Assembly: GCF_910592395.1 (NCBI RefSeq)
Contig: NC_088311.1
Coordinates: forward strand, 14,388,501 to 14,452,500
Reading direction: 5' to 3'
Source of the DNA: Lineus longissimus
Taxonomy: Eukaryota > Nemertea > Pilidiophora > Heteronemertea > Lineidae
Length of the DNA stretch: 64,000 bases
The notes beneath the pieces are model-generated. The model was not told the DNA's origin and did not search any database. It worked only from the letters and a program-made list of their open reading frames with translations. The position numbers were made by a program, and so were the translations under genes. How positions within the stretch are numbered: the stretch's first letter is position 1; each line of letters starts with the position of its first letter. Positions 31,308 through 54,158 of this stretch are shown here, in pieces.

Positions 31308-32126
31308 ATGGTTACTGTAATGAACATAGATTCAAGTGACTATCCAGATCAGAGTTCAAGTGATTTAACAGTCAATCTCAAGACTGAAATTCAGGATGCA
31401 TGTAGCATCACTTTAACTTTTGCAGTAATACCTTGTACATTCTACAACATAAGTGCAGCCAGGGAGAATAACCGAATCAAAGTTAAGGGGTTTGATGTGG
31501 CAGAGATTACGCTACCAGATGGTCTCTATGACCTACAGAGCTTTTCAAAAGTAATTGCGGATAAGTTGAAAGAAAATAGTATGAGTAGAGGTGGTGTCAG
31601 ATTTGACCTTGAAGAACCAACAGGTAAGGCCATCTTACACTTCCTAAAGAGAAAAAATGAGGCGCATTATCAGATCTATTTTCTTGGTAAAAGTAATGAA
31701 TTATTTGGCATGAAATCAGAATGGCCTTACCCTTTAGACAATAAAAGTAAGGATGATGTTGTAAGCGAGAAACCCATCAATTTTAGACCAATTAACCATT
31801 TTGTTTTTCACTGTGACATAATCGAATTTAATAGTGTATTAAGTAATGGTGAAGCATCTGATGTGCTAACCACAAGACCAATAAAGGAAGCTAATTTTGG
31901 AGATTTAATAGCATACATATTTGAGAAACCAATAGCAATTCCCTGTAAACCAAGATTCAATAAGCTGAATATTCGCTTAACTGATGAAAAAGGTGACATC
32001 ATCGATCTTAATGGTCATAATGTACAGTACCAATTGGTATTAACTCGAGCTATGCTCTCAGGGACTGTTAGTGGACCCCCGTTAGGAACCGCACACTCAC
32101 GTGTACCTAATGCTTTAATGCGCTAA
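31308..32126 (+). CDS. penton-like minor capsid protein 1, 3' end replaced by BEL LTR
   Basis: The frame begins MVTVMNIDSSDYPDQSSSDL in a GTAAATGG context. A beta-rich pattern (NRIKVKGFDVAEITLPDGLY, then FGMKSEWPYP) is followed by the family C-terminal strand IRLTDEKGDIIDLNGHNVQY. This arrangement matches penton-like minor capsid proteins of Polintons. A truncated mini-palindrome at 32045-32065 encodes TRAMLSG. The BEL element entered at 32065 and its LTR supplies the last 20 codons, replacing only about six original codons now at 38780-38795. The protein is therefore almost whole. A divergent paralogue lies at 47387-48315. Confidence 0.65.
   Translation: MVTVMNIDSSDYPDQSSSDLTVNLKTEIQDACSITLTFAVIPCTFYNISAARENNRIKVKGFDVAEITLPDGLYDLQSFSKVIADKLKENSMSRGGVRFDLEEPTGKAILHFLKRKNEAHYQIYFLGKSNELFGMKSEWPYPLDNKSKDDVVSEKPINFRPINHFVFHCDIIEFNSVLSNGEASDVLTTRPIKEANFGDLIAYIFEKPIAIPCKPRFNKLNIRLTDEKGDIIDLNGHNVQYQLVLTRAMLSGTVSGPPLGTAHSRVPNALMR
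32045..32065 (+). repeat. mini-palindrome, truncated by BEL insertion
   Basis: CGAGC-TAT-GCTC-TCAGG at the 3' end of the penton-like gene. The GGAC hairpin is interrupted exactly where the BEL element integrated. Confidence 0.8.
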
Positions 32127-32457
32127 GACACTGCATTCACGACAGATCACTGTGTGATGAGGAGATGATTGAACTTTAGATTTTGACCCCTAAACTAGGA
32201 CTAAGGGATATGAAAGGGGCACAAACGTGTGAGTAAGAATCCGTATTTCGCTATCTGTGATTTGGACTATCAGTTTCGATCAGATATTCAGACCAATTGT
32301 TATTTTATGCAGATCAGACCAACGAACCCTACTCGATGATGCCAGAAGCTCAAAGCAGATGTTTATGTTGGACTCGATATTAAAGACCCCACTTTAACAC
32401 ACCTTTTTATCGTCTTCCGTGTGTTCATCCCTGAGTTTGAAGGCTAAGCCACCCACA
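32066..32457 (+). repeat. BEL 5' LTR
   Basis: 392 bp, TGTTAGTGGACC...CCACCCACA, paired with 38383-38774. Confidence 0.95.
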
Positions 32458-32727
32458 CTGATACGTTTAGAAGACGATGAGCAAGCTGACGAAACCAAGA
32501 AGTCTACAGTTTTGATGTAAAAGTACCGTGAGTTAGTCCGATTTCTGAAGATTTCGACATTGCAGTCCCCGATTCCTGGAACCGAGGTTGTTGCTGTATT
32601 GATATTACGTACAACACACTGCCGCGTCATTGAATTTTGTGACCTGGAGACGAGGTTGCCTGCCAGCCACACCTGCAGAGCTACGCCGCTATAACAGTGC
32701 GGCTCCAAAAGGGGATTCCCGTCCAAG

Positions 32728-34281
32728 ATGAGTGGAAAAGAGAATCGAAATACAAGCGCGGGAAATGATGATGGCGCTGAAGATGAGTTCCATTTAGGTG
32801 ACGAACCAAATCAAGATGAGTTTGAAGAGGACGATCAACATCCTAGTGAAGATAGAAGACAGTTAAGGAGTGGTTTCTCAGCCCAGATGAAAGGAGCTGA
32901 GTTGAAGCAGCTCAGTCGTAGCAGATCCGCTTTGACCGGCCGAATTACTGCTAAGAAGAATTGTTTATCAAGACTAATGGAAGGTACCGATACCGATAAG
33001 GTGAAAACAATATTGCGGCAAATGAAAGAGCTGATGGACAAGTTTCTTGGCTGTCATAATGAGTATCAAGCACGACTTCCTGTGAAAGAGAGAGAACGGG
33101 ACCAGGCCTACTGCGACACCAGATTGGACGATTATGAACAGTTTGAAGCCGAAGTCGCGGGTTGGTTGGATACAATGGTAGTCATGGAAACAGAGGGATT
33201 GACTCAACCTGAAACTTCGAGAGGAGTATTTGGCCGAATTGACGTCCGTGCGTCGCCGTTTACACCAGCACATCAGTCAACGAGAATGTCGGATCCGTTA
33301 CCACCAGATCTTACAATGATTTCAAATGTAACACAAGCTACCGAACGAGCACTTTCAGCAATTGCTGACACGCAAAGGGATCTGACGAAACAAATGAGGA
33401 TTCCTAGAGCCGAACCAGAGATATTTGGTGGAGATGAGACCAAGTTCCGTGAGTTCTTCATTGACTTCCAAGAGTACGTAGCTAAATGGACCGACACGGA
33501 CAGAGAGAGGCTAACACAGTTACGAGCATACACGTCAGGAACACCGCATGAATTAGTGCGTGGCTGTGTCCATCTGAGACCTGAAGAAGGGTACGCAGAG
33601 GCTCTTAGACTACTAGAAACAAGATACGGAGCACCGTACGACACCAGCAGAGCATATATCAGGAAAATATCAGCCTGGCCGAAGTTGAGTATGAAGGCTG
33701 CAGAAGATATGGATCGATTTGCGATTTTACTCCGGGATAGCCTAAATGCATTGATTGGACTTGGGCGACTGACTGAACTGGAACATCCGTCCATGATGGC
33801 CCAGATTGTGGATAAACTACCTGACTGCTTAAGATATAAGTGGATTAGGCAGGATACAGAAATTTTTACGAAAACTGGTAATCCGGCTAATTACCAGAAC
33901 TTGGTTAAGTTTATTGAAGCACAGGCCAAGGTAGTTATGAACCCCAGGTATGGCACCAGACAAAGGACCGAAGAGGGACCAAAACCATCTCAAGGAGAAA
34001 GAAAACAAGACAAGTCACGATCAAATCCGGGAAAGCAAGCACCGTCCAAAGCTGCTTTCAGAGTAACATCCAGCAGTGAAAGGTCCAATGACAAGCCAGG
34101 AGAAAGAGAAGATCATTGCAGTTACTGTAAGGAATTGCATAAAATCCAAGATTGTATGAAGCTTAAGAAGTTGCCAAGACCTGAGAGAGGTGAATTTCTG
34201 AAGAAGACCGGGCGTTGTTTTAAGTGCTTGGCCATATTGCTAAAGACCATGGCAATCAGTCAACCAGCCAGACAGTTGTGA
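32728..34281 (+). CDS. gag: BEL gag
   Basis: 517 codons from an ATG after a 270-bp leader. An N-terminal acidic segment and coiled coil are followed by the gag core (FGGDETKFREFFIDFQEY, DRERLTQLRAYTSG, LETRYGAPYDTSRAYI), which matches the BEL/Pao gag domain. A zinc-knuckle region starts HCSYCKELHKIQDC and the second knuckle CFKC is cut by a one-base shift near 34222; the rest of that knuckle is read in the next frame. The product packages the element RNA. The shift may be a mutation or a programmed frameshift site; I cannot tell which. Confidence 0.85.
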   Translation: MSGKENRNTSAGNDDGAEDEFHLGDEPNQDEFEEDDQHPSEDRRQLRSGFSAQMKGAELKQLSRSRSALTGRITAKKNCLSRLMEGTDTDKVKTILRQMKELMDKFLGCHNEYQARLPVKERERDQAYCDTRLDDYEQFEAEVAGWLDTMVVMETEGLTQPETSRGVFGRIDVRASPFTPAHQSTRMSDPLPPDLTMISNVTQATERALSAIADTQRDLTKQMRIPRAEPEIFGGDETKFREFFIDFQEYVAKWTDTDRERLTQLRAYTSGTPHELVRGCVHLRPEEGYAEALRLLETRYGAPYDTSRAYIRKISAWPKLSMKAAEDMDRFAILLRDSLNALIGLGRLTELEHPSMMAQIVDKLPDCLRYKWIRQDTEIFTKTGNPANYQNLVKFIEAQAKVVMNPRYGTRQRTEEGPKPSQGERKQDKSRSNPGKQAPSKAAFRVTSSSERSNDKPGEREDHCSYCKELHKIQDCMKLKKLPRPERGEFLKKTGRCFKCLAILLKTMAISQPARQL

Positions 34282-35009
34282 AACCTGAGACCCCCAGTTC
34301 TGTAAACAAATCAGAAGCTGTAAAGTCAAGAGAAGCCGTGAAAACTGTGAAAACAGAAGAAGTAACTTCAAGAAGAATTGGAACCACTGGGAGAATTGCA
34401 ATGGCAGTCTTACCAGTCAAGCTGAGAAGTTTACATAATGGAGTAGAAGTTACTACGAATGTATTCTTAGACAATGGAGCCGGAGCGAGTTTCATCACTG
34501 ATGGATTGGCGACCAAGATGGGACTTACAGGCCAGTCTGTGAAAGTTGACCTATCCACGATGCTCCAGAGCTGTGCTAGTGTTGATTCAAGAAAAATCCA
34601 GAGACTTGAAGTCAAAGGCCTTTCCAAGGGAGATGAGTGGATCAAATTGAATGAACTCTTCACACACAGTACGATTCCCATCAAGCCTTGGGAGATTCCC
34701 ACAGAGAATGATGTTAGGAAATACCCAGAGTTAAAGAAAGTTGATCTGAAAGTTATCGATCACCCAGTTGAGATACTCTTCGGAGCTAATCAACCAGAAA
34801 TCACACGGCCAGTAGAGGTCATTCCCACAAAAGAAGATGGACCCTACGCTATGCGGACCAAGATCGGCTGGACGCTACTCGGACCTGTTCAGAGGGGCCG
34901 GATGAATATTGCTTCAAAGCCTCTCCACAGACTTACCGTTGAAGAACTGAACAACAACATGAATGCTCACTTCAGCAGAGAATTTGATGACGGACCACAG
35001 GGCGAATAG
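34224..35009 (+). CDS. BEL aspartic protease region of pol
   Basis: In the frame after gag, GHIAKDHG completes the zinc knuckle. An aspartic protease core follows, with FLDNGAGASFITDGLATKMG, DNGA taking the place of the usual DTGA/DSGA, and VEILFGANQPEI near the end. The frame ends at TAG 35007-35009. The reverse transcriptase continues in the same frame after the stop, so one nonsense codon separates them. Confidence 0.8.
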   Translation: MLGHIAKDHGNQSTSQTVVKPETPSSVNKSEAVKSREAVKTVKTEEVTSRRIGTTGRIAMAVLPVKLRSLHNGVEVTTNVFLDNGAGASFITDGLATKMGLTGQSVKVDLSTMLQSCASVDSRKIQRLEVKGLSKGDEWIKLNELFTHSTIPIKPWEIPTENDVRKYPELKKVDLKVIDHPVEILFGANQPEITRPVEVIPTKEDGPYAMRTKIGWTLLGPVQRGRMNIASKPLHRLTVEELNNNMNAHFSREFDDGPQGE

Positions 35010-35015
35010 ATTCGT

Positions 35016-36353
35016 ATGTCCAGAGAGGAAGAACGCTTCATGACTAAGCTGCGAGGAACCACCGCCTACACTGGAGAACGATATCAGGTTCGCTTACCGC
35101 TGAAGGATCAACTTCCAGCAGTTCCAGAGAGCAGACCAATGGCTGAACGTAGATTATCTGCAGTGTTGAAACGAATGAAAAGAGACAAGAACTATGCGAC
35201 TGCTTATCAGAGCCAGATGAATGACCTTAAGAAAAAGAGATACATCGAACGTGTTCCAGAGAATGAACTTGATGTAAAAATCAGATGGTATCTACCACAT
35301 CATGGTGTAATCAGCGAGAGAAAGCAGTCCAAGTTGCGAATCGTGTTTGATGGTTCAGCTGAAATTGATGGAATTTCAATCAACAACCTGTTGATGAAAG
35401 GGCCAGACCTGACAAACAGGCTAGACGGAGTACTACTAAGGTTCAGAGAGTACCCAGTTGCCGTTAGCAGTGACATTCAAGCCATGTTCCACCAGATACA
35501 AGTACCGCCAGAAGATCGAAATTGCTACCGATTTTTATGGGTCGATGACCAAGGCCAGATTGAAGATTGGAGGTGGACAGTACATCCTTTCGGATCGAAA
35601 CCTTCACCAGCCATAGCATGCCATGCGTTGAACCACGGGTTGGAAGAACAGGCTGATGACAGAACAAGAGAGAGTTGTATTGCTGCTAAACAGACATTTT
35701 ACGTTGATGATCATCTCGACAGCTTCATAGACACTGAAAGGGCAGTAAAACACGTTAAATGTGTTGACGAGACATGCCAACGCTCAGGATTCCTGTTGAG
35801 AAAATATGCCAGTAATCATCCAGAGATCATCAACTGTATACCGCAGGATCGCCACGTTGAAATTGGGAGTGAAATTAGCCTAACAGAAGATTGTAAAGAG
35901 ATGCCAACACTTGGTATGAACTGGAAGCCTGAGAGTGACAAGTTGACTTACCGAGCTCCAGATCTTAAGGAAGTTAAAACCAGACCCGAGCTTTTGTCAA
36001 ACATGACGAAGCTGTTTGATTTTTTGGGGTTGGTGTCACCATGGATACTCAACTGTAGATTAATTGTACAGAACCTGTCAAGGCTGAAGCTAAATTCGGA
36101 TGACCCTGTACCAGAAGATGAACTTCGAAAGTGGATCAACTGGAGAGATGGAACTCATGCAGTCACGGAGATAGAGTTTGAGAGATGTGTGACCACTTAT
36201 ACACCTGGACCACACGATGAACATCAGCTACACGTGTTCGGCGATGCATCCGAAAGAGCACATGGTGTAGCAGCTTACATTAGCACCCAGAGTGAGGATG
36301 AGATTGACTCCAAGCTGATCTACGCTAGATCCAGAGTAAATCCGCAAAATTAA
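35016..36353 (+). CDS. BEL reverse transcriptase and RNase H start
   Basis: 446 codons. Visible are YLPHHGVISERKQSKLRIVF, SDIQAMFHQIQVPPEDRN, WTVHPFGSKPSPAIACHALN, the catalytic FYVDDHLDS, the thumb region and the start of RNase H (HVFGDASERAHGVAAYI). The frame ends early at 36353, and homology continues in another frame. It would copy the element RNA into DNA. Confidence 0.9.
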   Translation: MSREEERFMTKLRGTTAYTGERYQVRLPLKDQLPAVPESRPMAERRLSAVLKRMKRDKNYATAYQSQMNDLKKKRYIERVPENELDVKIRWYLPHHGVISERKQSKLRIVFDGSAEIDGISINNLLMKGPDLTNRLDGVLLRFREYPVAVSSDIQAMFHQIQVPPEDRNCYRFLWVDDQGQIEDWRWTVHPFGSKPSPAIACHALNHGLEEQADDRTRESCIAAKQTFYVDDHLDSFIDTERAVKHVKCVDETCQRSGFLLRKYASNHPEIINCIPQDRHVEIGSEISLTEDCKEMPTLGMNWKPESDKLTYRAPDLKEVKTRPELLSNMTKLFDFLGLVSPWILNCRLIVQNLSRLKLNSDDPVPEDELRKWINWRDGTHAVTEIEFERCVTTYTPGPHDEHQLHVFGDASERAHGVAAYISTQSEDEIDSKLIYARSRVNPQN

Positions 36354-38085
36354 TTGGACAGATAGCACGATTGTCCTTGAATACCTCCGAAATGAGACCA
36401 TTCAAACCTCAGTCTTTCTCAGAAACCGAGTTGGGACAATCTTGACTCTCACCAGAGTCGAGGATTGGAGGCATGTACAAGGCAGAGAAAACCCAGCTGA
36501 TATTGCATCAAGGGGCGGGACAGCCCGGGATCTAAGATCAAGCCTATGGCAACATGGGCCAGAGTTCCTGCGACTGCCTGAGGAGATTTCAGTAAATCGC
36601 ATAGAGGGACAATCAGCAGCAGACAAAGGAGCAGATCACACCATTTCAGTACTGAATAGACTATCCGATTGGGAAAGGATCCTAAACCTTGTCCAGTGTA
36701 TGCTGAAGCCTTTCAACCCTGAGGATGAGGTTTCAACAGCTGATGCTAGAATTCATGCCAAGGTTGCAGTCCTGAGAACCATTCAACGAATGTACTACAG
36801 TGCGGAGTTACAGAGTCTGCGTGAGAAATTGACAACTCCAAGATGCAGCAAAATTCGTAAGTTATGCCCAGAGATCGACAAAGATGGCTTACTTCGCGTC
36901 GGGGGAAGATTGAACAACAGTCTGCTACCACATGAGGGAAGACGACCAATCATACTGACAGGTGGAGAGCCATTGGTCCGAAAACTCATCCGCAGGATCC
37001 ATTGGATGGAAGGCCACGTCGGAAGAAATCATGTGGTTTCATCACTGCGAGAACGATACTGGGTCACGGGAGTCACAGTAGCTGTCAAGCAGGTTTTAAA
37101 GGATTGCGTGTTATGCAAGAAATACCAAGCAAGACTCCAGACTCAGAAAATGGGAAACCTACCTATCGACAGAATATCTGCCACAAGAGCTTTCGAGAAT
37201 TCGGGAGTCGACTACTTCGGACCGTTGGAGGTGAAGATATCAGGTCGTTTGTACAAACGGTACGGAGTACTCTTTTCATGCAACTATACTAGAGCCATTC
37301 ACTTGGAGCTGACTCGAAAGTTGGACACTCAGTCGTGTCTCTTGGCAATCAGCCATTTCACGAACCGCCGGGGGAGACCAAGGAAACTCAGATCCGATAA
37401 TGGAAGTAATTTGATTGGAGCTTCCAAGGAGCTGAAACAGGACTTACTTAAATTGAACAAGGAGTTGCGGCTCCAAGAAAAACTAGCAAAGGAGGAGATT
37501 GACTGGGAATTTAACCCCCCTCTTGCAAGTCACTTTGGAGGACACTATGAACGGCAGATAAGATCGGTCAGAAAGATTCTATATGGACTAATGAACAAAC
37601 AACGATTGGATGAGGAGGAGATGCAGACAGTTATGGTGAAAGCAGAGTGGATCATGAATAGCAGACCACTAACCGCATGCAGCGCTGCTGACACTTCGGT
37701 CGTCGCAATAACTCCGAATCATTTAATGGGATTGAACACGGTGGAAACAGACACTAGTGTAACTGAGGAAAGTGACATGTACCGAGGAAGATGGAAACGC
37801 GTGAATTACGTGACTGACCAAATCTGGAAGCAGTTTAACAAACTGTATGTTTTATCATTGCAGGAGCGAAACAAGTGGCAGGATGCAAAATCAGACCTGC
37901 AACAGGACGATATCGTTGTGCTACAGGACACTTCAGTTGGTAGAGCCTATTGGCCAGTTGGTAGGATCGTGAACATTCACAAAGGAAGTGACGGTCATGT
38001 TAGATCATGTGAAGTTCGCACTCAGAATGGAACCTACCGTAGACCAATCACCAAGTTAGCCAAACTGCTGGAAGCAGAGGACTAA
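36354..38085 (+). CDS. BEL RNase H end and integrase
   Basis: The frame is open from 36442 to 38085; the stretch from 36354 joins it by a frameshift. It shows the RNase H end (VQGRENPADIASRG), the HHCC zinc-binding region (HWMEGHVGRNHVV, CVLCKKYQ), and the integrase core with DYFGPL, LRSDNGSNLIGA and HYERQIRSVRK, followed by the C-terminal domain found in BEL/Pao integrases (WPVGRIVNIHKG). It inserts element DNA into host DNA. One shift separates it from the reverse transcriptase. Confidence 0.88.
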
Positions 38086-38382
38086 GTTCAGCTTATGGAA
38101 AGATACAGTGACTTTGTGTAGAATTCGATTACTTCGTTCGTTGCGCTTTAGAACCTAACGTGTACTATCGCATTAATTCTTTGGACTGAAAATTCAAGGA
38201 GTTCTAGTTGTGTTGATGAGCAAAATCAGATGCGCTATTAAGTTCAGGAGATTTCTTTTTCATGTGTTTCATAGTTCGCGTTAATATTCTATTTAGAGGA
38301 CCCGTTAAATATAGTTAGTTACTAGTCTTCGTACACTCTTTTGGACTTGTAAATCCAAACGCAGTCGGATTTAAGGTGCCGG

Positions 38383-38774
38383 TGTTAGTGGACCCCCGTT
38401 AGGAACCGCACACTCACGTGTACGTAATGCTTTAATGCGCTAAGACACTGCATTCACGACAGATCACCGTGTGATGAGGAGATGATTGAACTTTAGATTT
38501 TGACCCCTAAACTAGGACTAAGGGATATGAAAGGGGCACAAACGTGTGAGTAAGAATCCGTATTTCGCTATCTGTGATTTGGACTATCAGTTTCGATCAG
38601 ATATTCAGACCAATTGTTCTTTTATGCAGATCAGACCAACGAACCCTACTCGATGATGCCAGAAGCTCAAAGCAGATGTTTATGTTGGACTCGATATTAA
38701 AGACCCCACTTTAACACACCTTTTTATCGTCTTCCGTGTGTTCATCCCTGAGTTTGAAGGCTAAGCCACCCACA
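38383..38774 (+). repeat. BEL 3' LTR
   Basis: 392 bp, with about three differences from the 5' LTR. The stretch 38086-38382 just upstream is the element's 3' untranslated region and holds no other gene. Confidence 0.95.
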
Positions 38775-38828
38775 GGGACACATCATTTAAATTAACATTT
38801 TCACTGGAATTAAATTGCTGGCATTGGT

Positions 38829-39889: not shown

Positions 39890-39896
39890 TTAAATG
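39887..39896. promoter_or_regulatory. palindromic divergent start pair CATTTAAATG
   Basis: The ATPase start codon (minus) and the integrase start codon (plus) share the 10-base palindrome CATTTAAATG. There is no room for a promoter between them, so each gene's control sequence must lie in the other gene, or the start context itself is the signal. Confidence 0.6.
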
Positions 39897-41014: not shown

Positions 41015-41101
41015 AATAAAGTCTCTAAAGTGACTTAAGTCACAAGAACAAGTTCGAAAAACGTAATTTAAAAAAAAATGTCCTACTAAATAAAGAAAGA
41101 A

Positions 41102-42533: not shown

Positions 42534-42537
42534 TTAA

Positions 42538-43301: not shown

Positions 43302-43414
43302 AATAGTCCTAATCCTAATGTGGTGTATCACTATCACTATTATCATTACTTTGGTGTTAGGGATGAATTTCACCAAGTAACACTACCATCAGCACCACCC
43401 TATTCATTAGTTTA

Positions 43415-43475
43415 ATCGAGCTATGCTCTCAGGACAAAGTCCGACTAGGACAAGGTCCAGAGAGCAAAGCTCGAC
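43415..43475. repeat. two mini-palindromes, end of the convergent gap
   Basis: GAGC-TAT-GCTC/GGAC-AAA-GTCC followed by the inverted GGAC-AAG-GTCC/GAGC-AAA-GCTC, ending at the polymerase stop. Confidence 0.88.
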
Positions 43476-46400: not shown

Positions 46401-47330
46401 TAACTTGAACACATTAATCTTGAGATTATTATCACTCTCTATCTTAGGAATATCCTTTTGAATACATACAGGAAATGAGTCTATTACGACATCAGTATTT
46501 TGTAGCATATCGGTAGTAATATTTAATGTACTCTCGAGCTCTGCTCTCAGGACAAAGTCCGTCTCTGGATTTTCTTTCAGATATTTAGCGGCCAATAAAG
46601 ACCAGAGAAAACATTTATTGTCATTTGATTCCACATTTATTACTGCTTTTGTTTTAAATGGTAATTTAGTGTAATGACCACCTTTACACCTCTTGTAAGA
46701 ACAGATGGTCATGTTACAAGACTCTATTTTATTTAAAGTAAGTCCAGAACCTTGAAAGTACCTTTCCTCAATCTGTGTCTTAATGTAGTTTAACTGGTTG
46801 GTTATGGCATAAATTGCCTGGTTCCTTGAAATTATGCTTTCCATTGGGGACTGTATGGGGTGTGTCGAACTTTGTTCTCGGGACTTTGTCCGAGTTACAC
46901 TTTCACCCTGACGATCAATGCTCTGCTCTTCGACCAAAGGTCGATCAAACTGAGCAAATACTGATATGCTAATTTTGTGATGGTAATCATTGAGTTGAAA
47001 TAATACCTCCTCTAATTTATCTCTGTATTCATACACTTGTTTAGCTTCTCTGTCAATCTTCAAACTAATGGTGACTACAGGCTTTCCAAATTGTTTTACT
47101 ATTTCTATTCCACTCACTTTCTTTATGCCATCTAGCTCATTTTCCTCAAATGCAAGTTTCTTATCCATAGTTTTAGGGATCAGTGATTGGGCTCGGGGTT
47201 GAGCAAGAGGCACATAATCCGGATTTAATTTACTTAAGTGACCTTTGGTTCTCCTGTGAATAGCCATATTATTGTAGGATATGTACTTGTCACATGTAGT
47301 GCAAAGTATTTTCTGATTCTTATCAGTCAT
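43476..47330 (-). CDS. polB: protein-primed family B DNA polymerase, Polinton B
   Basis: An intact frame of about 1284 residues. I chose the ATG at 47330 (MTDKNQ) because it has the AAATAGAATG context seen at other starts; an upstream ATG at 47363 exists. A C2H2-type finger opens the protein (CTTCDKYISYNNMAIHRRTK). Exonuclease motifs are YADFEAIS (about 425), NLSNYDSHLFIKEL (about 590) and YLKSDVILLADL (about 745), with a zinc/HNH-like insert CYYCNQP...HDHYCGRYRG between. Polymerase motifs are YVDANNLYGWSM (about 833), KLMNNAFYGKTCEN (about 1022) and LYLYTDSFVL (about 1120). It replicates the element from a protein primer. Five sites carry mini-palindromes, all in linkers between motifs. Confidence 0.95.
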   Translation of the reverse strand: MTDKNQKILCTTCDKYISYNNMAIHRRTKGHLSKLNPDYVPLAQPRAQSLIPKTMDKKLAFEENELDGIKKVSGIEIVKQFGKPVVTISLKIDREAKQVYEYRDKLEEVLFQLNDYHHKISISVFAQFDRPLVEEQSIDRQGESVTRTKSREQSSTHPIQSPMESIISRNQAIYAITNQLNYIKTQIEERYFQGSGLTLNKIESCNMTICSYKRCKGGHYTKLPFKTKAVINVESNDNKCFLWSLLAAKYLKENPETDFVLRAELESTLNITTDMLQNTDVVIDSFPVCIQKDIPKIESDNNLKINVFKLENEWAKSTCEAKLEPLYLSKNYDDDDVIDLLYFKDHFMYIRDINLFFRTLAHRVYLCRRCMNYFYRKSTLDKHKKKCGEHDYCKITLPPPNSKWSQIKFEKHSFKNRVPFVIYADFEAISTTVNDNSSSALRTKSDTTQSRARVGLRPQTDTTVTTKKLFKQNASAVGVYVHSDYTHLYSSQYVSHRGADVVDVFCNWLIRMEEQFSNLLNCNFPLTMTDGDSSSALRTKSDWHKYQLETHCYYCNQPLGYDNVKDHDHYCGRYRGAAHNSCNLNEKKAMFVPVFFHNLSNYDSHLFIKELMTKLPKYKKLKILAKTSEEYISFQFGCFRFLDSYRFLQSSLDNITKSMLDDDFKITRQLFPNTTDFKLLRKKGSVPYSFYTSHESYTVTYLEKSMFFDELKNEMAPDSAYDEAKVIWDHFKIRNHGEFVDLYLKSDVILLADLFEKFRDVNLNYFQIDPCHCYSAPGLTWQAGLKYTGINLELLTDTNILLTFEKAIRGGISGVMGTRHVKADEHHKLLYVDANNLYGWSMMEPQPYGSFEMIDIDPLELCSQDKVRLGQSPESKARLNMNVISKEQIMAIPRDSEVGYFLEVDLEYPGNIKFKSRNFPFCPESLFIEDDELSPYQRELLGDDKRSNVEKLILTQKDKTNYIVHYRMLQFYLKHGMVLKRVHSVISFKQSKWLAPYIDFNTKRRMDSKTDFEKDYFKLMNNAFYGKTCENVRNRVEIEFVSDGKRARNVMANPRFSSICVFDEHNAAISMRKTSMKFNKPIYIGASVLELSKLLMYEFYYEVLQPYFGEKNIELLYLYTDSFVLNINTDDLTKDLKELKHYFDFSNYPKDHTLYDTSKKKVPGYFKDELGGVEMTEFIALRSKMYAYRTKDYDSKKLKGIAKNVVRRNISFDDYVDCLEKSRSFYHKMRHLRSDKHQIYLEEVDKKSLSPFDDKRFILEDGISTLPFGMYYEGYIDYSDSNFA
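44697..44757. repeat. two inverted mini-palindromes in polB
   Basis: GAGC-TTT-GCTC/GGAC-TTT-GTCC and the reverse unit, encoding ELCSQDKVRLGQSPESKARL in the linker after the first palm motif. Confidence 0.9.
45704..45736 (-). repeat. mini-palindrome in polB
   Basis: Encodes SSSALRTKSD just before the CYYC zinc-binding insert. Same unit in a different reading frame from the HNH-gene copy. Confidence 0.9.
45952..46025. repeat. two mini-palindromes in polB
   Basis: Opposite orientations, encoding SSSALRTKSD and SRARVGLRPQ in the stretch after the first exonuclease motif. Confidence 0.88.
46534..46562 (+). repeat. mini-palindrome in polB N-terminal region
   Basis: GAGC-TCT-GCTC/GGAC-AAA-GTCC; on the coding strand it reads DFVLRAELES. 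Confidence 0.9.
46864..46895 (-). repeat. mini-palindrome in polB N-terminal region
   Basis: GAAC-TTT-GTTC/GGAC-TTT-GTCC, encoding TRTKSREQSST. A lone small hairpin TCGACCAAAGGTCGA lies nearby at 46930-46944. Confidence 0.88.
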
Positions 47331-47386
47331 TCTATTTATTAGATTAAAATTTATTAAATTCAATGAATCTCTTGAATTAAATAGAA

Positions 47387-48315
47387 ATGGACTTCATAAT
47401 CAATGAACAAGAATGTAATGAAGCCAAATTTGAGTACTACTTAACAGACCAATTAGACATAAAATCCATTACTTTGAAATCGATAACCTTTTACAATTCA
47501 TGGTGGACAGGTGATTTTCTACCAGCGAGTGTCCAAGTATTCATGTTTCTTTACGAAGAGTTTAAACTTAATAATCAACTGAATACAACCATAATAGAAC
47601 AGTGCCTTGAAGTCATTAACCATACATCCGATGCGACGCCAGATGAATTTTGTAAGAATTTTTTACTTAACCCCTCTATTAGAATGATAATAAAAAACAG
47701 ACAATACACATTTCCATACACTCGACATTTTAGTTTAAGTGAGTTTTGTGAGGAATGGCAAACATACATAAAAGAAATGGAATAAACCATGTGAAAATTT
47801 ACTGTGATAACAATAATTACATAACCCTTGAACTTACAGGAGATAAATACTTTTACCTTAATATCACAAACTATGCTATTGTAAATAATACACCAGCTGG
47901 CAAAACATTCTCCTCAAACTTAATCAGTGTGGTGAATGAGTGGTTTGGCTTTAAGCAAACTAAATTCACCAAGAAAGGAAAATACTACTCCACAAGACCA
48001 CTCAACTTTTACAGGAAATATCTATTCCTGCAAGCTAATTTGGTTGACAAAGCTAAGACCCTCTACAACAATAAACCATCTAACATTTTCTGCATCATAC
48101 CTGTAGAAGATGGTGACCAAATAAAAATGCAGCGATACGAACCGAATTGTAAGAAAACGATAAATAAGTGTACTAATCACATAAAATTCGAAATCACTGA
48201 TGAGAATGGTAAGCTAGTTAATTTCAGAGGAACAGATGTTTCTTTAGAGTTAAGAATCGAGCTATGCTCTCAGGACAAAGTCCGAATAGAGTTAAACTCT
48301 CAGGACGAAGTCTGA
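47387..48315 (+). pseudogene. penton-like minor capsid protein 2, one frameshift
   Basis: The start MDFIINEQECNEAKFEYYLT follows AATTAAATAGAAATGG. Conserved blocks are SITFYNSWWTGD, FGFKQTKFTKKG and NFYRKYLFLQANLVDK; the C-terminal strand is ITDENGKLVNFRGTDVSLEL. A one-base shift near 47780 divides it into two open frames. The protein ends in mini-palindrome peptide (IELCSQDKV, then IELNSQDEV). It is closer to the Polinton A gene than to the left-hand penton-like gene. A vertex or minor-capsid role is inferred. It starts divergently from polB. Confidence 0.72.
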
Positions 48316-48346
48316 CTGAGACAAAGTCCAGAGAGCAAAGCTCGAC
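48256..48346. repeat. three mini-palindromes at the 3' end of the penton-like gene
   Basis: GAGC-TAT-GCTC/GGAC-AAA-GTCC, then GAGT-TAA-ACTC/GGAC-GAA-GTCT, then GAC-AAA-GTC/GAGC-AAA-GCTC. The first is a clean insertion compared with Polinton A; the second is the candidate founder. Confidence 0.9.
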
Positions 48347-48358
48347 CACCTGATGAGA

Positions 48359-48925
48359 TCATTCCATTAAAGGAATAGTACATTTCTTCTCTTTAACTAC
48401 AGGTTTAACAAGAGGGTTAATTGATCCCTTCATGACTGCTTCATTCGGACTTTGTCCTGAGAGCATAGCCCGATTAGGACTACGTCCAGAGAACAAAGTT
48501 CGATTCAAGCCTGATCGCTGCTCTTTACTTACTTTTTTAGGAAGTTTCTTAAACATAATGAATGCTGCTAAAATAACGGCACCTAAACCTAGTACATAGA
48601 CATAGGTATTACTACTAGATTCACGCAGTAATACATCAGTATTTTGAGATTGTGGTTCTTCTTCCTCTACTTCTTCTTCCTCCTTTTCCACAACTCTGTT
48701 TTTTGGTGAGGAGTCCTGTACTTTAAATGTCGTCTTATCCTTTTCTATCCTCTTAAATTCCTTAGATCTTCTACCCAGTTCTCTAGACCATGCTAATTGT
48801 TTCTCTGATCGAGGTTTCTTAGACACTGAAACTTTAGTCGAACTTTGTTCTCTGGACGTAGTTCTAGTCGGACTTTGTCCTGAGAGCATAGCTCGAGTAG
48901 TATCAGTTACAGTTTCAAGTTCCAT
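48359..48925 (-). CDS. 188-aa single-pass membrane protein, Polinton B
   Basis: The frame is intact. The N-terminus is largely mini-palindrome peptide (RAMLSGQSPT, SREQSST; residues about 9-30). A basic region (WSRELGRRSKEFKRIEKDK), a Glu-rich run (about 80-92) and a membrane helix (YVLGLGAVILAAFIMF, about 109-124) follow. The C-terminus contains two more palindrome peptides. About a third of the protein is therefore repeat-derived. No homologue was found in A or C. Function unknown. Confidence 0.6.
   Translation of the reverse strand: MELETVTDTTRAMLSGQSPTRTTSREQSSTKVSVSKKPRSEKQLAWSRELGRRSKEFKRIEKDKTTFKVQDSSPKNRVVEKEEEEVEEEEPQSQNTDVLLRESSSNTYVYVLGLGAVILAAFIMFKKLPKKVSKEQRSGLNRTLFSGRSPNRAMLSGQSPNEAVMKGSINPLVKPVVKEKKCTIPLME
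48445..48514. repeat. two mini-palindromes in the 188-aa gene
   Basis: GGAC-TTT-GTCC/GAGC-ATA-GCCC and GGAC-TAC-GTCC/GAAC-AAA-GTTC, encoding NRTLFSGRSPNRAMLSGQSP on the minus strand. Confidence 0.88.
48837..48898 (-). repeat. two mini-palindromes near the start of the 188-aa gene
   Basis: GAAC-TTT-GTTC/GGAC-GTA-GTTC and GGAC-TTT-GTCC/GAGC-ATA-GCTC in opposite orientation. A half unit GAAC-TAT-GTTC lies just upstream at 48948-48958. Confidence 0.85.
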
Positions 48926-48974
48926 TTATCTTGGCCGAATTTAATTCGAACTATGTTCTCATAACCAGGTTAAT

Positions 48975-49847
48975 TTAGTCTTCTTTATCATCACTACCTG
49001 TGATATCTAGACTTTCATCTATTGGTTTGTCACATTCAGAGACAGTCATATTTGGTGTATTCATATTTGATGCAGTCATACTCGATGTATTCATAGATGA
49101 TTCCTCATGACAATGACCTAAAGTAATAAGTGTTGTTGAGGCAAGTGCAGTTAGTGCACCCATTCTCAAACTCAACCATCCAAGCCATTTATCCAACTCG
49201 TTAGTTATCAAATAATCATTTCTAAGATCATGGTAAAGATCATCTTCATCATCTATTGGTAATAACCACCTTGATAATTTAGTGTAAGCTTTAAGTACTG
49301 TCTTACCCAAAGAATCATTAAGTCTGGCAGCCATCTTTGTTTCATACATTCTATGGTGTTTTAAGATTTCTTTTTCAGTCATATTATCTAAGTCATTAAA
49401 AGTTATTTGTTTATTAAGGAAATCCTTGCTTTTACCAGTTGCAATTAAAATTTCTAAGTCTTGTTTGGCTTTAAGGCCACTATCAGTCAAATAGTTCAAA
49501 TTTTGTTGATTGCTACTTGAACCTTGTTGATTGCTACTTGAACCTTGTTGATTGCTAGTCGGACTTTGTCCTGAGAGCGTAGCTCGAGTTGATCCTAGTT
49601 GGCAACTAGAATTGACTATTCCTTGACTAGGAGTAACAAAATTTGAACTATTCAACTGCTTGTTTGAAACGTGTTGATTTGTAGAGCAGTTCTGTTGAAA
49701 GTTAGTTCTGTTTTGTTGGTAACTACCAGTGTTCTGTTGGTTAGAAGCCCCAACTCGAGCTAAGCTCTCAGGACTCATAACACCAATCTGTTTCATCTGT
49801 TGTTCAATCACTGCAGATGTCTGACTATTCATTTGCTGATTATTCAT
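48975..49847 (-). CDS. 290-aa Gln/Asn/Ser-rich protein with one membrane segment
   Basis: Starts in TTTAAATGA. Residues 1-120 are low complexity (NQQNTGSYQQNRTNFQQN, then SSNQQG repeats) and carry two mini-palindrome peptides (ARVGASNQ region; TRATLSGQSPT). A helical central part (GKSKDFLNKQITFNDLDNMT, ILKHHRMYETKMAARLNDSL) leads to a hydrophobic segment (MGALTALASTTLITLG, about 230-246) and a Met/Ser/Asn tail. No homologue seen in A or C. Function unknown; it lies in the minus-strand block with structural-type genes. Confidence 0.6.
   Translation of the reverse strand: MNNQQMNSQTSAVIEQQMKQIGVMSPESLARVGASNQQNTGSYQQNRTNFQQNCSTNQHVSNKQLNSSNFVTPSQGIVNSSCQLGSTRATLSGQSPTSNQQGSSSNQQGSSSNQQNLNYLTDSGLKAKQDLEILIATGKSKDFLNKQITFNDLDNMTEKEILKHHRMYETKMAARLNDSLGKTVLKAYTKLSRWLLPIDDEDDLYHDLRNDYLITNELDKWLGWLSLRMGALTALASTTLITLGHCHEESSMNTSSMTASNMNTPNMTVSECDKPIDESLDITGSDDKED
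49557..49590 (-). repeat. mini-palindrome in the 290-aa gene
   Basis: GGAC-TTT-GTCC/GAGC-GTA-GCTC, encoding TRATLSGQSPT. Two 21-bp direct repeats (TTGTTGATTGCTACTTGAACC) precede it. Confidence 0.88.
49752..49776 (+). repeat. partial mini-palindrome in the 290-aa gene
   Basis: GAGC-TAA-GCTC-TCAGGAC; the second hairpin is truncated. Confidence 0.75.
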
Positions 49848-49898
49848 TTAAAATTATGGAAAAATGACTGTTAAGTGCAAAATGCTGTTTTCACAACT

Positions 49899-51098
49899 TT
49901 ATTGCATCTTAACACTAGCTCGAGCTATGCTCTCAGGACGAAGTCCGGCTCGAGCTATGCTCTCAGGACGAAGTCCGGCTCGAGCTATGCTCTCAGGACG
50001 AAGTCCGGCTCGAGCTATGCTCTCAGGACGAAGTCCGGCTGGTGTAAACTTAATACTACTGATGCAGTTAATGTCTCGACCTGCACTGGCACTCAGTAAA
50101 ACGTCAAACTGCTTGTCAATATCCTGGTCATATTCCTTCTCAACCTTGTAATTCTGGAAGAAAATACTTTGAGTGAAATCATACCATAATCTCTCCAAAT
50201 CATTAACTCGCTCCTTGTTGGTTAAAAAAGGTGTAAATATTACATAATCAATTTTCAGCATTTTAAAGGCTTGGTGTAAAAATACCTTGTAGTTAATGGT
50301 GACCTTGACACCACAGTAATGCAGAAATCTAAGGAAAGCATAGTACACTAGTCTAAGGTCAGTGATATTCTCATCGGTTAATTGCGGTTTACCAATTGCC
50401 CTGTTAATAAATTCAATGGCAAGAAACCAATCATATTCCCCACAGTGAAATTTAAAAAGCATGGCTTCACCATGTAACCCTTGGTTACATAATTTAGAGG
50501 GGAGAGTGTTAATACCCATTTTTAGGGCTGACTGAAGAGTACTTTCATATCTCTGCTTACTAAGACATTTTCTGTGACTTGAAAAGTAGCACTGTAAATA
50601 CCCTTCCACAAAGTCCTTTAAATACTTAACTGCCGATTCGGACAGCCGCCTCCATCCAAGTTTCCTTAGAATACTGTCAAAGTAACGTGTCTTGTTGTCA
50701 ATATTGATCTCAAGAGTTTTAAAATCATCATCGTAAGTAGTCGAATTGCAATTGGTGCAGAATTGATACTTCACAGTTTTAGCTGCGTACCTTGCTGAAT
50801 TCAAGTTTTTTTGATACTCAAAAAGTGTCCACCTTTTACAATTACGGCAGAATTGGGCATTAGTGTTGGTACTGACGTCATATTCTTTCATTCTTGGCAG
50901 GACTACTTTGTGTGTCTCAGTCGGACTTCGTCCTGAGAGCTCTGCTCGAGTCGAGCTTTGCTCTCTGGACTTTGTCCTAGTCGGACTTTGTCCTGAGAGC
51001 AGAGCTCGATCCATAACCCTAGGACGAATGTATCCTTTAAGATTCTCATTGTTCCACTCACTAGAATAATAATCTTTAAATGAGATGTTTTTATTCAT
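49899..51098 (-). CDS. 399-aa zinc-ribbon protein, Polinton B
   Basis: Starts MNKNISFKDYYSSEWNNENL. After a palindrome-derived insert (about 30-60), a zinc ribbon is visible (FCRNCKRWTLFEY...FCTNCNSTTY, about 83-125). A helical region follows (RKLGWRRLSESAVKYLKDF, KCLSKQRYESTLQSALKMGI, LRLVYYAFLRFLHYCGVKVT). A zinc ribbon followed by helical repeats is the layout of TFIIB-like factors, but the match is weak and I offer it only as a hypothesis. The last 40 residues are four copies of a 10-residue palindrome peptide (AGLRPESIAR). No homologue seen in A or C. Confidence 0.6.
   Translation of the reverse strand: MNKNISFKDYYSSEWNNENLKGYIRPRVMDRALLSGQSPTRTKSREQSSTRAELSGRSPTETHKVVLPRMKEYDVSTNTNAQFCRNCKRWTLFEYQKNLNSARYAAKTVKYQFCTNCNSTTYDDDFKTLEINIDNKTRYFDSILRKLGWRRLSESAVKYLKDFVEGYLQCYFSSHRKCLSKQRYESTLQSALKMGINTLPSKLCNQGLHGEAMLFKFHCGEYDWFLAIEFINRAIGKPQLTDENITDLRLVYYAFLRFLHYCGVKVTINYKVFLHQAFKMLKIDYVIFTPFLTNKERVNDLERLWYDFTQSIFFQNYKVEKEYDQDIDKQFDVLLSASAGRDINCISSIKFTPAGLRPESIARAGLRPESIARAGLRPESIARAGLRPESIARASVKMQ
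49921..50040 (+). repeat. four perfect tandem copies of the 30-bp mini-palindrome
   Basis: Four identical 30-bp units, each CGAGCTATGCTCTCAGGACG plus AAGTCCGGCT. Each has two hairpins, GAGC-TAT-GCTC and GGAC-GAA-GTCC, joined by TCA. The array codes for the C-terminus of the 399-aa protein on the minus strand. The length of 30 keeps the frame. This array defines the unit of the whole family. Confidence 0.97.
50919..51009 (-). repeat. three mini-palindromes in the 399-aa gene
   Basis: Units in alternating orientation (GGAC-TTC-GTCC/GAGC-TCT-GCTC; GAGC-TTT-GCTC/GGAC-TTT-GTCC; GGAC-TTT-GTCC/GAGC-AGA-GCTC), encoding RALLSGQSPTRTKSREQSST and following residues. Confidence 0.9.
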
Positions 51099-51155
51099 AT
51101 TTACATGATAATTATTTTTTAAACATTGTTTTGATAGAAGTTCACCTAAGACCTT

Positions 51156-51776
51156 TTATGTTTTTTTACGTGATTTTAAGGCTTTAACACCCTCTATTAA
51201 ACCATAGATTATGGAGCTCACAATAGCAATAACTGCTATGATCAGATGTTCAGCTAGAAAGCCAACAACTGCACCAATTGTTTTCAGGAGAAATGATACG
51301 ATAGAACCGATGATTCCCGGTAAAGCCGCAGCTGATTTCTTGGCTAGTTCTTTTAGCCATTCAGCATACTTCTTGAGACCTTCTTTTACTTTATCTGGTA
51401 TTGATGGTTTTGGTCCTGGTCCAGGTTCTGGTGTAGGTCCAGGAGTTGGGTCTGGTCCTGGAGTTGGGTCTGGTCCTGGAGTTGGTTTTACAGATTTAGT
51501 GGCACCACTTAAAGCACTACTGATACTGAGACCTAGAGTTGTAAATGTCATTACAACAGCTGTTATTATGGCGCTAATAGTTACACCATACGTCTTAAAA
51601 AGTAACTTTATTCTGTCCTTCAGAGGAATAGTTGAATCTGGTTTCTTTAGAACATCAACAATTAAACGTTTAATTCTTCTAGTTTGTGACTCCCTGTCAT
51701 TGTCTAACCTCCATACCTTTGACTGTTCCTCATACAATTTGTCATTTAGTTCATCTATTTGCTTTTTCAACTCCAC
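51156..51776 (-). CDS. 206-aa amphipathic membrane protein, Polinton B
   Basis: The frame is intact. An N-terminal coiled coil (LKKQIDELNDKLYEEQSKVW, about 3-40), a basic segment (VLKKPDSTIPLKDRIKLLF), a membrane helix (about 70-92), a Pro/Gly repeat (PGPDPTPGPDPTPGP, about 97-122), an amphipathic helix (EGLKKYAEWLKELAKKSAAA) and two hydrophobic helices with PGIIGSIVSFLLKTIG. Homologues occur at the same relative place in A and C. The amphipathic helix and membrane helices suggest a membrane-active virion component. No enzyme motif. Confidence 0.7.
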   Translation of the reverse strand: MELKKQIDELNDKLYEEQSKVWRLDNDRESQTRRIKRLIVDVLKKPDSTIPLKDRIKLLFKTYGVTISAIITAVVMTFTTLGLSISSALSGATKSVKPTPGPDPTPGPDPTPGPTPEPGPGPKPSIPDKVKEGLKKYAEWLKELAKKSAAALPGIIGSIVSFLLKTIGAVVGFLAEHLIIAVIAIVSSIIYGLIEGVKALKSRKKT

Positions 51777-51820
51777 TTTATCTTCAGAACCTTCATCTAC
51801 AGACGTTACATAGTCTCTTG

Positions 51821-52678
51821 TTAAATCATGAATTTTTTTTCTAGTTCTTGTATTTGCATGTCCTTATCCCTCTTTACTGCAGCTAGATCATCACCAGCGT
51901 GTTTTAACCCTCTAAGTTCTCTCAAGGCATATTCAGTAAAACCCAGTGATTTAAGTTCATCATCAGTAGCATCTATCAGTTTATCTATTGGTTTGTTTGA
52001 ACTGTTTACCTCCTTAATTACTGCCTGTGTTTCAGGGGTTACTAATGTAGGTTGACTTACTGGTGGGTCAGGTGCAATCATACCTCTAATCATGTCAGCA
52101 AATCTAGTACCAAACTTAGTCTTTAATGTGCCTTCAGCATAGAAGCTTCCATTATCCTTAGTTAAAGGAATATACTTTATCTTTTCTCCTTTATTATTAG
52201 GATATTCAAATAAATTGTTGTTTCCTAGTTTATCTTTTATCAAATCAAGTTCAGAATGTGTCGGATTGTAACAAAGTTTGTTACCTTTGTAACTAATGTG
52301 TGGTGAAAGATTACCCAATTTTTTCTTGTCATAATTCCAGTTTGATCCTCCCAATGCTTTATCAAGTTTATCCTCTATTGTATCGTAACTTAACTCCTTT
52401 TCCATCAATTCAGGGACAATATATCTTACTCTTTCTGGTGTACTGAATGAAGTTTCATCAGTAAGATTTTCACCTCCTGTGTTGTATGTTGTGCCTGGCC
52501 TTTCTGGAGGTATACTGAATGAAGTTTCATCAGTAAGATTTTCATCTCCTGTCATGTATCTTATGCCGTTATCAGTAAAATATTGCATCTCTCTCCAATA
52601 AGGATCAAAATCTTCATGATCAACATCGTATTTAGGTTCGTAATAACCAATATCATAATATTCTAATCCTTCAGCCAT
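51821..52678 (-). CDS. 285-aa acidic protein with C-terminal helical module, Polinton B
   Basis: The frame is intact. Starts MAEGLEYYDIGYY after a short AT-rich leader. The N-terminus is acidic and tyrosine-rich; two copies of ENLTDETSFS lie about 30 residues apart. A middle block has GNKLCYNPTHSELDLIKDKL and IKYIPLTKDNGSFYAEGTLK. The C-terminal module (IDKLIDATDDELKSLGFTEY, ALRELRGLKHAG) resembles an SAP-like or UBA-like small helical fold. Homologues are broken in A and C. It always lies between the tail-anchored protein and the 206-aa protein, so the three probably work together. Confidence 0.65.
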   Translation of the reverse strand: MAEGLEYYDIGYYEPKYDVDHEDFDPYWREMQYFTDNGIRYMTGDENLTDETSFSIPPERPGTTYNTGGENLTDETSFSTPERVRYIVPELMEKELSYDTIEDKLDKALGGSNWNYDKKKLGNLSPHISYKGNKLCYNPTHSELDLIKDKLGNNNLFEYPNNKGEKIKYIPLTKDNGSFYAEGTLKTKFGTRFADMIRGMIAPDPPVSQPTLVTPETQAVIKEVNSSNKPIDKLIDATDDELKSLGFTEYALRELRGLKHAGDDLAAVKRDKDMQIQELEKKFMI

Positions 52679-52688
52679 AATTACTTAT

Positions 52689-54158
52689 TTATCTAACCAC
52701 AAAAACAATCAATGTACCAACAACTGAGTAAAGCATGAATTTAATTGTTTCATGAGTATCATCCACCTTCTCAACTTTGGGGTCAAGTTTAGTAGTAGTA
52801 GGAGTATTCTTTGAGGTTTCAGTTGTTTTTGGTGTAACAACATTACTCTTTGGTGAATGACTGGTCTCGAGCTTTGCTCTCAGGACGAAGTCCGTCTTGA
52901 CAGTACCAACGCTACTCTTAACTCTTATTTTCTTAGAACTATTTCCTTCCATCAGTGGTGGTGGTAAGGTCTTTTTGTGGTTAATGTCATTCTTACCGGG
53001 TTTAGCATTTTTTGGTGCTATTAAAATGTTATTATTGTAGTTATCCAGCTTACCAATAACGAGTACCATATTTGATCCTATGACATACAATCCTGGTGCT
53101 ATTACATAATCTAGTCTTGTATGAGTGTCACTCACTGCTTTTTGGTATCTTTGAATTGAAGTGGGAATATCAGGATGTTGATTAATCGAGTCCTTTAATA
53201 GTTTGTTAAATTCCTTCTGAGCATCCAATTCTGTACCCGGTACTCCAATTATTGGTGTTCTGGTCAACGCCTGAGCACCCAGAATACAGTAAACATATGT
53301 TCTTATTGTGTCATTCAACCTCTCTATTCCAGGATGAGAGAAACCATTTGATTTAAATATCATGAATTGTTGATAGGTTTGACATTCATTTTGTGTAATT
53401 ACATCAAATACATTCTTGTGTTGTTTCACATGATACTTAATGAAGGTATCAGGATATTTGAAATTAGCCATTCCAGCATCCCAGTCTTTACTGAACATCG
53501 GTGGCATTCTATTTTCATGAACTTGCATGAGGAAGAAATTGATTTTAGAATCATTGATGTAATATCCGGGATCAGTTATGTTCGGGTTGTAATCCGGTAC
53601 ACTCCATGACCTCCAACCACCGTTATTTTCAAACACCGAGAAATCGTACTCGTCTTTTAAACCAAATTCACTCAATAACCCTCCTAGTTTCCTACGGTTA
53701 ATGTTATTGTTTGTCTCATTAAAATCACTTTCACCTGGAATTGGTATCTCTAGATTCTTCATGATCTTCAATATTTGATAGTAAACATGAAACCTGTAAA
53801 TTGACCTTAACAATGGGTCACTGTGATTCAAGTGATCGTCTATTGAAATACCACAACCTGTTGTAGCAAACCAAACAGCCATGTTAAATTGGTTCTGGTA
53901 AAACGATAATGGATTCTTTTCCAGTCGCAGACAGTCTTTCTTATTTTTCAGGCTCAAAAACCCAGGTGTTATCTTAGTTTCTTGTAGTCTGAAGAAGTTA
54001 TTAGTATTAACAGTTACTTCTAAATTAAAGAAGTCATAGGTGAATTTACTTTTATGTTGATTTGCTATTGGATAATACTTTATTACTCCAGAAGCTGATG
54101 AATAATTATGTTTGGTTTTAACTTCAGTTTTGGATAATGAAGACAGTAAAAAGGCCAT
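52689..54158 (-). CDS. 489-aa tail-anchored protein, conserved in all three Polintons
   Basis: The frame is intact, starting MAFLLSSLSK in AAATAAATGG. Conserved blocks are ITPGFLSLKNKKDCLRLEK (about 62-80), YQNQFNMAVWFATTGCGIS (about 88-106), NINRRKLGGLLSEFGLKDEY (about 152-172), WSVPDYNPNITDPGYYINDS (about 185-205), MQVHENRMPPMF, RLNDTIRTYVYCILGAQALT, RLDYVIAPGLYVIGSNMVLV (about 350-370) and a C-terminal membrane helix (about 470-488). A Thr/Lys-rich stalk carries one mini-palindrome peptide (DFVLRAKLET). The size, tail anchor and high conservation suggest an outer virion or attachment protein, but no family is recognised. Confidence 0.7.
   Translation of the reverse strand: MAFLLSSLSKTEVKTKHNYSSASGVIKYYPIANQHKSKFTYDFFNLEVTVNTNNFFRLQETKITPGFLSLKNKKDCLRLEKNPLSFYQNQFNMAVWFATTGCGISIDDHLNHSDPLLRSIYRFHVYYQILKIMKNLEIPIPGESDFNETNNNINRRKLGGLLSEFGLKDEYDFSVFENNGGWRSWSVPDYNPNITDPGYYINDSKINFFLMQVHENRMPPMFSKDWDAGMANFKYPDTFIKYHVKQHKNVFDVITQNECQTYQQFMIFKSNGFSHPGIERLNDTIRTYVYCILGAQALTRTPIIGVPGTELDAQKEFNKLLKDSINQHPDIPTSIQRYQKAVSDTHTRLDYVIAPGLYVIGSNMVLVIGKLDNYNNNILIAPKNAKPGKNDINHKKTLPPPLMEGNSSKKIRVKSSVGTVKTDFVLRAKLETSHSPKSNVVTPKTTETSKNTPTTTKLDPKVEKVDDTHETIKFMLYSVVGTLIVFVVR
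52866..52896 (+). repeat. mini-palindrome in the 489-aa gene
   Basis: GAGC-TTT-GCTC/GGAC-GAA-GTCC in the stalk-coding part. Homologues in A and C lack it. Confidence 0.9.

Follow-up and report, generated by a model that had tools for sequence, protein, structure and literature searches.

A 27-bp double-hairpin unit that probably behaves as a mobile element in Polintons of Lineus longissimus

The stretch of DNA analysed here, hereafter the window, comprises 64,000 nt of Lineus longissimus NC_088311.1 (14,388,501-14,452,500, forward strand) and includes the Polintons A, B and C, of which Polinton B carries a family of short units built from two adjacent hairpins. Judging from the comparison of sequences, this unit is very probably a non-autonomous, ultra-short mobile element that inserts into Polinton DNA. 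Filled and empty sites differ by a clean step of 30 bp, made up of a 27-bp core and a duplicated 3-bp target ending in T. The mobility that the preliminary description of this DNA had surmised is borne out by clean empty sites, 3-bp target duplications, private insertions and the recurrence of identical cores at many sites.

Form and distribution of the unit

Defined from about a dozen sister Polintons, the core reads C-GARC-NNN-GYTC-TCN-GGAC-NNN-GTCC-G/T. A covariance model of the unit has 33 matches in the window (E<0.01), all between 32046 and 52894 and inside Polinton B, and none in the rest of the window, Polintons A and C included. Between 40006 and 52869 there are 32 units with at most four mismatches to the 25-base motif GARCNNNGYTCTCNGGACNNNGTCC, 23 of them exact; a BEL/Pao element interrupts a further unit at 32047 (five mismatches), and two half matches, both weak, are found at 45951-45986 (E 0.59 and 0.09). 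This brings the total in the window to about 34 copies at about 21 sites, in both orientations and in genic as well as intergenic positions. Three Markov copies of the window, pooled, contain no match to the motif with fewer than four mismatches, and Rfam has no match at its gathering score across 29000-55100. The preliminary description had counted about 34 copies at some 20 loci, all in Polinton B, in both orientations, within and between genes and with no dispersed copies in Polintons A and C, and on all these points the present tally agrees with it. It was also right about the two-hairpin repeat itself, but its unit of 26-30 bp has to be corrected to the 27-bp core plus, at most sites, the 3-bp target duplication. 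Among the sister copies, which are identified here by L numbers, single-hairpin derivative repeats of the form CGGACACAGTCCTGAT stand at window coordinate 39253 in one to three copies (L033, L037, L038, L041 and L047); the window itself has none.

In the genome searched (391 Mb, 30 contigs) the GAGC/GCTC form of the unit has 1,920 exact matches (958 + 962) and the GAAC/GTTC form 515 (261 + 254), and reversed-pattern controls for these two main forms have none. The places examined were chosen among the matches listed, the first 100 of each genome search, out of the 2,435 exact copies of the two forms. All of twenty 10-kb stretches sampled where listed copies cluster hold relatives of Polinton B that are about 82-99% identical to it (matches over 250 columns), and their units sit largely at sites common to the sister copies. 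Five isolated-looking copies on contig C1 (L051, L060-L063) likewise all lie in or between Polinton matches, which are about 70-89% identical in the longer matches. Among the places examined, that is, the twenty clustered stretches and the five isolated matches, the count inside and outside Polintons thus yields no copy outside, and within this sample the units are confined to one Polinton lineage. IMG/VR contains neither an exact unit nor a relative of the Polinton B polymerase, although records close to the window's genome may be left out there, and 257 Gb of prokaryote contigs gave eight scattered matches to a slightly looser pattern, presumed to be due to chance.

Empty sites, target triplets and arrays

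A known empty allele is available for 16 sites, on which the duplication counts are based, the empty allele of 48253 being taken from Polinton A. At 12 of the 16 (40198, 40515, 41682, 43412, 43930, 44693, 45702, 48253, 48441, 48834, 49513 and 51054) at least one filled allele shows an exact duplication of the target triplet. Eleven copies can be aligned at 44693. Two of them are empty and read TTAAGTGGATC; in four, a single plain 27-bp core stands with AGT on either side, another has a hybrid core that is shortened, and the remaining four, to which the window belongs, contain two cores and three AGT. Alleles with one or two units are longer than empty ones by exactly 30 and 60 bp. Of the copies compared at 48834, three lack the unit, seven carry one core and three, again including the window, carry two. 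Three units are private to a single copy each, namely at 40198 in L038 (AAT, one of 11 copies), at 40515 in L035 (GAT, one of 12) and at 43930 in L044 (AGT, one of 13).

The 3-bp flanks are identical in 171 of 265 units with at most two mismatches, which are not independent as copies share sites, and identical flanks of length 1, 2 and 4-7 are found in 33, 16 and none of the 265. Counted per site on the commonest allele, the flanks match at 15 of 27 sites as compared to a mean of 2.9 and a maximum of 9 in 10,000 shuffles (the GCT array enters twice, as 49916 and 50042, in both the 15 and the 27, and two neighbouring sites are lumped at 46481). A T directly precedes the core in 263 of the 265 units, and the preferred targets are NNT, mostly ANT; triplets that begin with C on both sides do not occur anywhere in the genome for the form searched (G-ended, GARC/GYTC). 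The most widespread core is identical at nine sites, at eight of which it is enclosed on both sides by AAT, ACT or GCT in at least one copy each. As an identical core thus comes with site-specific flanks, the triplet belongs to the target and not to the unit.

Several observations weigh against a mobile element of this kind. When only the commonest allele and its outer flanks are considered, the match holds at just 9 of the 16 sites, with 41682, 43412 and 48253 dropping out. No allele shows an exact duplication at four of the 16, namely 43759, 45945 (where the alleles of L036, L042, L046 and L048 were excluded as mis-anchored), 46861 and 39253. At the first three the target is TGT but the right side reads AGT or GGT, a pattern not expected from a simple staggered cut, and at 39253 the step is 29 bp or involves the single-hairpin repeats. 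Moreover, most sites are common to many copies, so that the case for recent activity comes down to the three private insertions. Finally, Pfam recognises no mobilising enzyme or transposase in the Polinton B open reading frames (ORFs) scanned, with 39894-40306 and the rest of the genome lying outside the scan.

The TGT sites in particular bear on a different route, in which the nascent strand would jump during strand-displacement synthesis to another unit through 2-3 bp of microhomology (NT or NNT), copy that unit together with its right-hand triplet and then jump back. No transposase would be needed, and the unit would still be mobile. Template switching of this kind would account for the RGT to the right of TGT at the three sites, at two of which arrays read TGT/AGT/GGT, and for the finding that at one site units of one subfamily take the place of those of another. 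It is less easily reconciled with the AAT, ACT or GCT that vary by site around an identical core, and with a triplet that at most sites follows the target. We consider it possible though doubtful, and because of the TGT sites it stays a serious rival; on balance we lean slightly towards a staggered cut rather than template switching.

Thirteen of the 33 window units begin exactly 30 bp after the preceding unit, whereas 5,000 random placements give 0.05 such steps on average and never more than 3. Three of these steps fall within the GCT array at 49916; in other copies this array contains between one and seven near-identical units, and it looks like the product of slippage. Outside this array, units of different orientation and subfamily are often adjacent, suggesting that insertion next to an old unit has happened repeatedly. 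Tandem arrays reportedly occur among yeast GC clusters too, to go by the title of Weiller et al. 1989. Ordinary minisatellite growth together with recombination between arrays would be in line with the GCT array and with the half-unit deletions observed, but is very improbable as an explanation for the family, given single units dispersed at non-homologous sites, duplicated targets, clean empty alleles and array neighbours of different subfamily and orientation, and it is contradicted by the private single insertions. Nor can the unit be classed with microsatellites or minisatellites, which are arranged head to tail and grow by slippage only, since it occurs as dispersed single insertions with target duplications.

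Stem pairing and units within genes

Among 100 distinct units there are 51 compensated cells, as compared to a mean of 11.3 and a maximum of 21 in 2,000 shuffles, and 24 as compared to 3.5 when the most variable pair is left out. Pairing holds in 96.5% of the cells of the two 4-bp stems, whereas just 55% of units form the outer C-G pair. In a set of 65 hand-picked units 92% of cells pair versus 27-44% in slid controls, and the comparison of this set with shuffles agrees on four of five covariation measures; for the number of pair types (12 versus 10.2), 61 of 500 shuffles reach the observed value, so that this count does not stand out. At the main variable pair the G-T hybrid is found 12 times in the genome versus 1,920 and 515 paired forms, and the A-C hybrid GAAC..GCTC in none of 309 units from the sampled stretches. 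The covarying stems of the preliminary description therefore hold up to a statistical test that none of the 2,000 shuffles matches, but one of the three examples given for them does not: GAGT/ACTC at 48288 is no variant stem but pre-existing Polinton sequence, as GAGTTAAACTC stands already at the matching place in the unit-free Polinton A.

But does the pairing reflect selection on the structure of resident copies, as had been concluded from the covariation? Only in part, it seems: the pairing is real, yet orthologous units differ from those of the window at 45 of 1664 stem positions (2.7%), compared with 451 of 14996 flank positions (3.0%) and 42 of 624 loop positions (6.7%). The stems are thus no better conserved than their flanks, although the latter are largely coding and a weak constraint may therefore act on the stems. 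In alleles with one or two differences the stem changes are all unpaired; double stem changes are confined to alleles with three or more differences, and two of these doubles give A-G, which is no pair. By their sequence, the alleles with paired changes look like swaps for another subfamily, and at such low divergence slow compensation in place may also occur. The structure seems to matter for spreading, be it copying or insertion, and not for a function of the resident unit.

These figures also bear on the idea that the Polinton uses the units as functional sites, such as packaging sites, transcript ends or protein-binding dyads, that are kept by selection. Perfect dyads, strong covariation across units, many copies per Polinton and old shared sites would all be expected of such sites. 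However, stems that diverge as fast as largely coding flanks and small changes in place that are not compensated would not, nor would the lack of units in Polintons A and C. Furthermore, ORFs cover about 82% of Polinton B without its BEL/Pao insert and 17 of the 21 sites start in ORFs, just as expected from the coding share. We regard this idea as improbable.

Core and duplication together amount to ten codons, so that the reading frame is kept and insertions are tolerated in genes, and several units lie inside the polymerase ORF, which is open over 1295 codons. That so many units are found in ORFs that stay open could suggest a ten-residue peptide module under selection at the protein level, but this is hardly credible, as the units within ORFs occur in either orientation and in more than one frame and thus encode unrelated peptides, and several lie outside the listed ORFs.

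How, then, might a mobile unit of 27 bp spread? Insertion would take place on replicating Polinton DNA, where the core would fold into single-stranded or cruciform hairpins. An enzyme provided in trans, either Polinton- or host-encoded, would make a cut staggered by 3 nt in the target, and filling of the gaps would then produce the duplication. If the hairpins must pair to be mobilised, only pairing cores would spread and the resident copies would subsequently drift. Residues 560-607 of the polymerase, beside the unit at 45707, match Endonuclease_7 with 21.4 bits, below the cut-off of 23.6; this family includes cruciform-cutting nucleases, and we regard the polymerase as a candidate for the mobilising factor and no more. 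More tentatively, the unit may be a hyperparasite, stripped down to no more than a structural signal, whose movement is confined to replicating Polinton DNA and which uses the Polinton's own replication machinery, for example if the polymerase polypeptide with its weak endonuclease-VII-like match were to open and insert the hairpins.

The carrier Polinton and known systems

The features of Polinton B and its units are collected in Table 1. The element is flanked by a 6-bp direct repeat, the duplication GCAGTG, and according to Pfam it encodes an ATPase of the packaging type and a chromodomain protein besides the polymerase B ORF; a capsid match is weak and falls below the threshold. A long interspersed nuclear element (LINE)-type reverse transcriptase and the BEL/Pao element are both recognised in the window. 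The long terminal repeats (LTRs) of the latter, of about 390 bp, are identical at 393 of 400 compared positions, with the last mismatches at the LTR end. Against the PDB the polymerase has three weak matches only, two of them zinc-finger-like and one to a La protein.

Table 1. Polinton B, its double-hairpin units and associated features (window coordinates)
Feature	Position	Strand	Remarks
Polinton B, carrier	29101..55003	.	211-nt terminal inverted repeats 29101-29311 / 54793-55003, 100% identical
Degenerate unit split by BEL/Pao LTR retrotransposon	32046..32067	+	
BEL/Pao LTR retrotransposon	32066 to about 38772		5-bp duplication GGGAC; inside an already degenerate double-hairpin unit
Unit, second stem TGAC/GTCA	40005..40031	-	
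Unit in ORF 41102-42253	41687..41713	+	empty in L032, L035, L037, L038, L041, L048
Old unit, GAAC/GTTC subfamily	41797..41823	-	matching place also filled in the more distant Polinton pieces L060, L061
Three-unit array (-,+,-)	43211..43297	.	every step 30 bp
Two units at neighbouring AAT and ACT targets	43417..43473	.	empty in L035
DNA polymerase B ORF	43476..47363	-	1295 aa; open through several units
Two units (+,-) in DNA polymerase ORF	44698..44754	.	empty in L035, L038; one unit in L036, L042, L048, L050
Unit in polymerase ORF, AGT duplication	45707..45733	-	8 copies empty
Rearranged half units and one full unit	45951..46021	.	TGT target, AGT right flank
Unit in polymerase ORF	46535..46561	+	flanks TCT
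Unit in polymerase ORF, TGT target	46866..46892	+	right flank AGT in the window, GGT in all five other filled copies
Unit (AAT duplication), then chimeric unit on resident GAGTTAAACTC, then reversed unit	48258..48344	.	first unit: Polinton A empty
Two units, ATT duplication	48446..48502	-	empty in L035
Two units (+,-), AGT duplication	48839..48895	.	empty in L035, L036, L044
Diverged unit, 4 mismatches	48947..48973	+	
Unit, AGT duplication	49560..49586	-	6 copies empty: L034, L035, L036, L044, L049, L050
Decayed unit	49756..49782	+	intact unit with ACT/ACT flanks in L035, L044
Four identical tandem units separated by GCT	49921..50037	+	1 to 7 units in other copies
Three-unit array (-,+,-)	50922..51008	.	
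Unit, TCT left flank	52868..52894	+	filled in 9 of 9 copies covering the site

Three further observations concern the window at large. The ORF at 41102-42253 contains coding tandem repeats of 15 and 18 bp, of the AATATGATAAATCAA type, at 41119-41386. In one Polinton gene region, Polintons A and B are 86-92% identical between 5216-5949 and 47372-48270 as compared to only about 65-79% in other matched regions, as if by recent exchange or strong conservation. A large inverted repeat at 62844-63981 has arms of 364 nt, 93% complementary, with 410 nt between them.

Miniature inverted-repeat transposable elements (MITEs) are non-autonomous and duplicate their target. The unit shares with them a target duplication whose length is fixed, at 3 bp in most cases, with the three TGT sites deviating. 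It differs from them in its 27 bp and its imperfect ends of 5 bp (CGRRC), and to our knowledge it is far shorter than any known MITE; no autonomous partner is recognised in the ORFs scanned.

Closer parallels are found in mitochondria. The GC clusters of yeast mitochondria (e.g. GC42) resemble the unit in being short and palindromic, in their presence/absence polymorphism, in the short direct repeats at their flanks and in the merging and shuffling of units; their flanks are AG or ACT, and the mechanism of their amplification is discussed but unsettled (PMC4478555). GC42, however, is mitochondrial and 42 nt long (PMC4478555), whereas the unit has 27 bp, forms two triloop hairpins and resides in nuclear Polintons, often in coding sequence. 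The double-hairpin elements (DHEs) of fungal mitochondria also consist of two adjacent hairpins and occur in several copies, and some near-identical copies in two fission yeasts differ only in a loop; they are mitochondrial and, in the species described, mostly intergenic or in rRNA genes (PMC10085805). The likeness to the unit considered here is one of form. Hairpin-forming repeats in sponge mitochondrial DNA are likewise scattered, and in an animal, but are mitochondrial and lie in large intergenic regions (PMC2800124). Rickettsia palindromic elements are similar in that palindromic repeats are inserted in frame into many genes, but they measure about 150 bp and belong to a bacterial chromosome (PMC10969869). 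The unit, with its 27 bp read in several frames and both orientations, does not fall into this class of about 150 bp with a conserved encoded peptide. With the double-hairpin and GC-cluster class it has in common the two hairpins within tens of bp, the presence/absence polymorphism and the short target duplication; it departs from that class in lying in a Polinton instead of a mitochondrial genome. By analogy, the unit behaves like mitochondrial GC clusters and DHEs, yet in nuclear Polintons. Among the titles and abstract openings listed for open-access papers on hairpins or palindromes in Polintons, none describes such an element.

Ultra-short palindromic mobile elements are thus known from mitochondria, where their way of spreading is unsettled (PMC4478555). 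Similar behaviour is now seen in virus-like transposons of the nucleus; as there are thousands of copies, cleanly empty sites and a rule for the target, the mechanism can be tested by counting insertions. The polymerase ORF, for its part, stays open through repeated insertions of ten codons. Finally, stems may covary without having a function where they reside, so that covariation in repeats should be read with caution.

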